A stretch of 64,000 nt of DNA from Chthoniobacteraceae bacterium (GTDB lineage: Bacteria > Verrucomicrobiota > Verrucomicrobiia > Chthoniobacterales > Chthoniobacteraceae), in NCBI GenBank assembly GCA_947476255.1, contig CANJPY010000007.1, positions 1-64,000 of the forward strand. The letters are read 5' to 3'. The notes below the pieces were generated by a model that saw nothing but the letters and a program-made list of their open reading frames with translations, was not told the DNA's origin and did no database searches. Each line of letters begins with the position of its first letter. The stretch's first letter is position 1. A program made the position numbers and the translations under genes. This document shows, in pieces, positions 55,182 to 55,827 of this stretch.

Positions 55182-55183
55182 AC

Positions 55184-55778
55184 TAGAGTAGGGAGACGAG
55201 GGTGGTTTGCGGCCACCACCACTCCTTGTCCTCCTCTCCCCCTCATCGAACCGGACGGGCGGGTTTCCCGCAGCCGGCTCTCGGAGGCTGTTCTCCGGTT
55301 TGCTTCATTTGCATTGCCGTGTGGCGTTCGTGGGGAAACGAGTCAGACCGTATTGCCCATGCAGGCGTTCTTCCTGCCCCCCTTGGCTCCCTCGGAGTTA
55401 CCCGATTTCTTCCCTACTATGGGGGCTCTGACTTCTGTCGGAGGTCCCTTGACCTCCTCTCCCAACAGATCTCCTGTGTTCATTGCATTTCCCTTTCCTG
55501 ACATACAATCACCAACCACCCCAGCTTCCTCCTCAACATGACTCGTGTTCGGATGTTGGGGATCGCCACCATAGGCGGCGGGACTTCGTCTGTTGACCGT
55601 AGACTCGTCGAAAGGTTGAGGCCGAATCGTGTTCACTTTGGTGATGGTCTGTCAGGTTCTCTCTGTGGCTTTCCCCCCCGCCTCACGGCGACGCAGTGAC
55701 TTCAATTCCTCATCCAGTTCACCGCACCGGATGGCCGAGGTCTTCCACGTCGGAGGGATGTGCAGCTTCACAGCGCAC
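55184..55778 (-). mobile_element. ORF-less (or ORF-degenerate) group II intron; boundaries approximate
   Basis: Minus strand: GTGCGCTGTG 5' end at 55778, ACAGAAGTCAGAGCCCCCATAGTA-type core motif, domain V GAGCCGGCTGCGGGAAACCCGCCCGTCCGGTTC (55248..55280), 3' end CTCCCTACTCTA. Confidence 0.78.
55248..55280 (-). ncRNA. Group II intron domain V hairpin
   Basis: GAGCCGGC...GGGAAACCC...GUCCGGUUC: catalytic AGC near the 5' base, GAAA tetraloop, 2-nt-type bulge, matches known DV layout. Confidence 0.85.
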
Positions 55779-55827
55779 GATCAGATGCTTCCGACATCTG
55801 ATCCCTCATTGCCGTTTCTAGGTTAAA

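Follow-up and report, generated by a model that had tools for sequence, protein, structure and literature searches.

The minus strand of the window (the whole 64,000-nucleotide stretch of a Chthoniobacteraceae bacterium contig analysed here) carries, at 55778..55183, a group II intron of 596 nt that lacks a reverse transcriptase (RT) of its own. Judged by sequence comparison, it is a chimera, with its first two thirds from one intron lineage (type 1) and a catalytic back third from another (type 2). Type 1 is a verrucomicrobial lineage that is ORF-less in metagenome-assembled genomes (MAGs) of Prosthecobacter and has RT-bearing copies elsewhere in the class. Type 2 is an RT-bearing family with ~40 copies in the host genome, where its own 3′ ends are found, and its full-length form was seen in congeners only. 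We infer that the element is probably a non-autonomous remnant left in an intergenic region by deletion or recombination involving one intron of each type; the mixed composition itself can be read from the alignments.

Intron ends were set by comparison with relatives and with the ~40 genomic copies. The 5′ end (55778..55774) reads GUGCG, aligns with that of the relatives and agrees with the group II consensus GUGYG. A conserved DIII segment, ACAGAAGUCAGAGCCCCCAUAGUA (55438..55415), was recognized by reading the sequence and by alignment, and domain V (55280..55248), located by its Rfam match, has an AGC triad. All three lie where the original prediction had put them, and its interpretation, an RT-less group II intron, is borne out by covarying DI–DIII, a domain V match and a DVI-like hairpin, with no RT present. 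The 3′ end that it proposed, CUCCCUACUCUA, does occur at that place, but the terminus is better set at 55183. It had also dismissed the internal ORF at 55343..55636 as not RT-like; the ORF is indeed unsupported as a gene, but a frameshifted remnant of an RT C-terminus lies at 55376..55311.

The Rfam model Intron_gpII (RF00029) matched DV–DVI across its whole length in a 1-kb search, at 39.8 bits (E = 3.8e-6). This covariance-model match, proposed earlier as a check on domain V, is marginally under the curated gathering score of 40, and a default Rfam scan at the gathering threshold therefore reported nothing for the intron. The DVI hairpin in the window is longer than that of the model. Folding of DV–DVI gave −52 kcal/mol (z = −3.5 versus shuffles), and compensatory changes were found in 32 of the 73 predicted consensus pairs of DI–DIII across eight sequences. 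Domain VI (55183..55240, minus strand), delimited by the Rfam alignment and folding, contains a candidate branch-point A at 55189; the Rfam alignment places the motif CCUAC within it, and a single-sequence fold leaves CCUAC in a single-stranded tail. The intron terminates in AG rather than the AY of group II introns; in place of its final G, U is found in 41 of the 44 type-2 sequences aligned. Because altered termini are known among group II introns (PMC4424553), the AG end weakens the claim of activity and not that of family membership.

Two lineages were distinguished by similarity within the host genome (5.15 Mb in 189 contigs, with an assembly fragmented at intron repeats) and in related genomes. 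The type-1 module comprises DI–DIII, or intron nt 1–402 (55377..55778, minus strand), and is delimited by similarity to relatives, the identity profile and covariation. From nt 1 to ~400, it aligns with a 713-nt ORF-less intron in a Prosthecobacter MAG (71% identity over 415 nt, E = 2e-47), in which no RT match was found; a second Prosthecobacter MAG contains a type-1 intron of 573 nt. Within the host genome, the first ~203–219 nt have a single other match, 98% identical, on contig C172. The type-1 core motif was absent from the viral contigs searched.

The type-2 module (55183..55374, minus strand) consists of the end of domain IV with the RT remnant, DV and DVI. Its ~192 nt share ~95% identity with the 3′-terminal part of a 1947-nt RT-bearing intron in congener G009 (locus L142) and have ~40 matches at 90–97% in the host genome, mostly at contig ends. 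The RT frame of the G009 intron is open and matches TIGR04416 above its cut-off as well as the Pfam domains RVT_1 and GIIM, with no endonuclease domain reported by that domain search; congener G013 has a near-identical copy of this intron. A windowed identity profile puts the lineage switch near intron nt 402–405: in 50-nt steps, identity to type 2 is 36–58% over nt 1–350 and 80–98% over nt 401–596, where identity to type 1 is 33–66%. Immediately past this junction sits the frameshifted, 22-residue remnant of the type-2 RT ORF, which matches the C-terminal end of that RT with 77% identity over 22 aa (E = 4e-5).

Targeting by the type-1 half was assessed by scanning all alignment columns for an EBS1 register among 15 family members, scoring how well each register pairs with the final five exon bases of the member itself (matched) and with the exons of the other members (crossed) (one member, L171, scored zero owing to an empty exon slice). 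The best register gave 4.13 of 5 pairs for matched exons versus 2.62 for crossed ones, compared with 2.93 matched pairs for the next-best register. In the window it corresponds to GGUCA (55594..55598, minus strand), which pairs with IBS1 UGAUC at the end of the 5′ exon (55779..55783, minus strand) through four Watson–Crick pairs and one G–U pair; the domain I fold and the EBS1–IBS1 pairing that the original prediction required are both present. Directly upstream of the intron, a hairpin with a 10-bp stem (55779..55803, minus strand; −12.7 kcal/mol) is matched in stability by 2% of background windows. Type-1 introns insert directly after such a DNA hairpin: the 32 nt upstream of the insertion sites average −12.4 kcal/mol across 17 family members versus −5.9 in the background, with individually unexceptional stability at the single sites C172, L172, L170 and L225. 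Loci L211–L229 represent a class-wide, hairpin-targeted group II intron family whose domain V has the AGC triad and whose EBS1–IBS1 signature is clear.

The intron is flanked on one side by a LolA-like gene in the same orientation and on the other by a convergent DUF6807 gene. The target hairpin of the intron forms the left portion of a dispersed palindromic element whose left end, CCTAGAAACGGCAATGAGG, occupies 55804..55822 (minus strand) and has ~30 further genomic copies, many at contig ends. Copies of the element have ends CCTAGAAACGGCAATGAGGG and CCCTCATTGCCGTTTCTAGG, measure ~63 nt or 290–460 nt and mostly have TTA/TAA flanks (also at L059, L065, L067 and L068). The element serves as an insertion site for both intron types. 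Contig C55 carries the 3′ half of a type-1-like intron and, after it, CCTCATTGCCGTTTC, with which the palindromic element would be expected to continue; the window lacks this remainder, and its 3′ exon reads TAATAA, like those that follow type-2 introns. The window's 3′ junction (CTCTA/G TAA) likewise resembles type-2 ends (CTCTAT/TAA or TTA), whereas the 3′ exon begins with C in seven of the eight type-1-like introns that could be read. The 5′ ends of type-2 introns on contigs C122 and C168 lie one base beyond the right edge of palindromic elements.

These features are best explained by the following sequence of events. A type-1 intron, as its sequence supports, would have inserted through EBS1–IBS1 immediately past the inner hairpin of a palindromic element. 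A type-2 intron would have been located elsewhere in the genome or would have formed a tandem with the first, at the element's right edge. The two copies would then have recombined, or the DNA between them would have been deleted, with breakpoints within or close to domain IV; this would have joined type-1 DI–DIII to type-2 DV–DVI and its 3′ exon and removed the RT ORF. Such an event accounts for the composite intron body, for a 3′ exon of type-2 character and for the absent half of the element, and internal deletions in other type-2 copies fit it. The gene blocks on either side, gyrA–DUF6807 and LolA–PAP2–GT, are both conserved in congeners, where each has a contig of its own; in the window they meet at the intron. 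This break in synteny is consistent with recombination rather than decisive, because congeners differ in their gene content downstream of the LolA-like gene. Searches of congeners by DNA similarity and synteny found no empty site, and no parental tandem arrangement of type 1 and type 2 was found.

Under an alternative explanation that we regard as unlikely, the intron is an active non-autonomous ribozyme that depends on the type-2 RT, acting in trans, for splicing and mobility; template switching in the course of target-primed reverse transcription would have produced it, and it would have been inserted as a unit. It shares its 3′ end (the domain IV tail, DV and DVI) with the RT-bearing type-2 family, its insertion site offers both an EBS1–IBS1 match and a hairpin, its 5′ half recurs on C172, and ORF-less introns are known to be mobilised in trans in Thermosynechococcus (PMC2882425). 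The C172 copy, at another site and with its 3′ half unassembled, might mean that the chimera exists twice, which would favour mobility. However, insertion as a unit at UGAUC should have left the remainder of the palindromic element after the intron, where it is absent, and the type-2-like 3′ exon, the terminal G and an assembly without an intact type-2 RT also speak against this explanation. Of the two possibilities raised by the original prediction, RT service in trans or a remnant, the latter is favoured. We consider it less probable still that the intron is a modular ribozyme, in which the DI–DIII targeting of one lineage works with the DV–DVI of another, so that, itself RT-less, it borrows the 3′ end and with it the RT of the genome's dominant intron and keeps its own hairpin target.

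The intron could also be an ordinary deletion derivative of one RT-bearing parent after loss of its ORF, like the TeI3 introns of Thermosynechococcus. In its favour, the RT C-terminus remnant flanks the junction, type-2 copies with internal deletions occur in the genome, and type-1-like RT-bearing introns exist in the class, with a type-1-like RT fragment on C55 (66–68% identical to the RTs of G356 and G293). The identity profile nevertheless disfavours a single parent, as the two halves match different lineages, and we hold this origin to be very unlikely. The least probable explanation, which we would give hardly any weight, is an assembly chimera of unrelated intron fragments: the ~40 near-identical 3′ ends do break up the assembly, but the contig is continuous across the locus, and private substitutions occur throughout the window's type-2 part and beside the junction.

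As a product of fusion between the two lineages, the intron has kept its target pairing and domain V; given its altered last base and the lack of an RT, we regard it as a non-autonomous remnant that probably splices poorly. Splicing, or rescue and mobilisation by an RT in trans, is possible. The search of the genome for RT-bearing copies that the original prediction had suggested recovered ~40 type-2 3′ ends and RT fragments, but no intact type-2 RT in the host assembly, which is fragmented at these repeats. Also against activity, domain V of the window copy has two substitutions relative to the type-2 consensus, one of them common to a single other sequence. Overall, the copy diverges from that consensus by 4.7%, compared with roughly 1–3% for most copies; this modest divergence counts in favour of activity and does not support strong decay.

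Among known systems, the TeI3 families of ORF-less introns in Thermosynechococcus elongatus, which are mobilised in trans, are similar in the loss of the domain IV ORF, the remnants of RT ends, the presence of RT-bearing relatives in the same genome and the retention of EBS (PMC2882425). They differ in that a single ORF deletion in a single parent gave rise to them and in being actively mobilised, whereas the intron in the window combines two lineages, and any activity is hypothetical. Group IIC (bacterial class C) introns insert after the stem-loops of terminators or attC sites (PMC4424553, PMC10190682), and the window intron resembles them in directly following a hairpin and in its short EBS1–IBS1 pairing. 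Membership of class C would be tentative. The best PDB match of the type-2 RT is the GsI-IIC RT (E = 2.9e-58). In contrast to the CGC triad of the IIC structure (PMC10190682), the domain V triad is AGC in the window, in the type-2 intron L142 and in the type-1 relatives. A family that combines hairpin-directed insertion with an AGC triad in domain V is relevant to the reach of stem-loop targeting outside CGC-type IIC introns. The inter-lineage chimera offers a natural test of the interchangeability of domain I and domains V–VI between families, and shows how intron-rich genomes may produce non-autonomous introns through recombination.

Elsewhere in the genome, ~40 contig ends carry the type-2 3′ end (for example L017–L055, on contigs including C1, C20, C34 and C36), which makes the type-2 intron a main cause of assembly fragmentation. 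The surplus of 3′ ends over 5′ ends (~40 versus about five) could suggest heavy, LINE-like 5′ truncation of type-2 copies. We do not claim this, as the surplus more likely arises because left-flank contigs stop inside the palindromic element. The internal deletions of type-2 copies differ from one another (113^1028 in L177 on C168, 1146^1667 in L123 on C60 and 1281^1572 in L036 on C61). Loci L027 (C52), L032 (C127) and L034 (C182) have a common junction at nt 1686 of the L142 intron, at which the RT ORF adjoins a palindromic element; the end of the element could be read in two of them, C52 and C182. At positions 1–370 of L036 (C61), a segment of a type-2 RT is directly bordered by the 3′ end of an intron, and a type-2 intron end lies antisense within another RT gene at positions 1–90 of L055 (C129); introns thus appear to be nested in introns. 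The 5′ ends on C31 and C128 belong to divergent type-2 relatives. A separate group II intron RT was found at positions 613–2781 of L009 (C97), with an open frame of 723 codons and its own domain V downstream.
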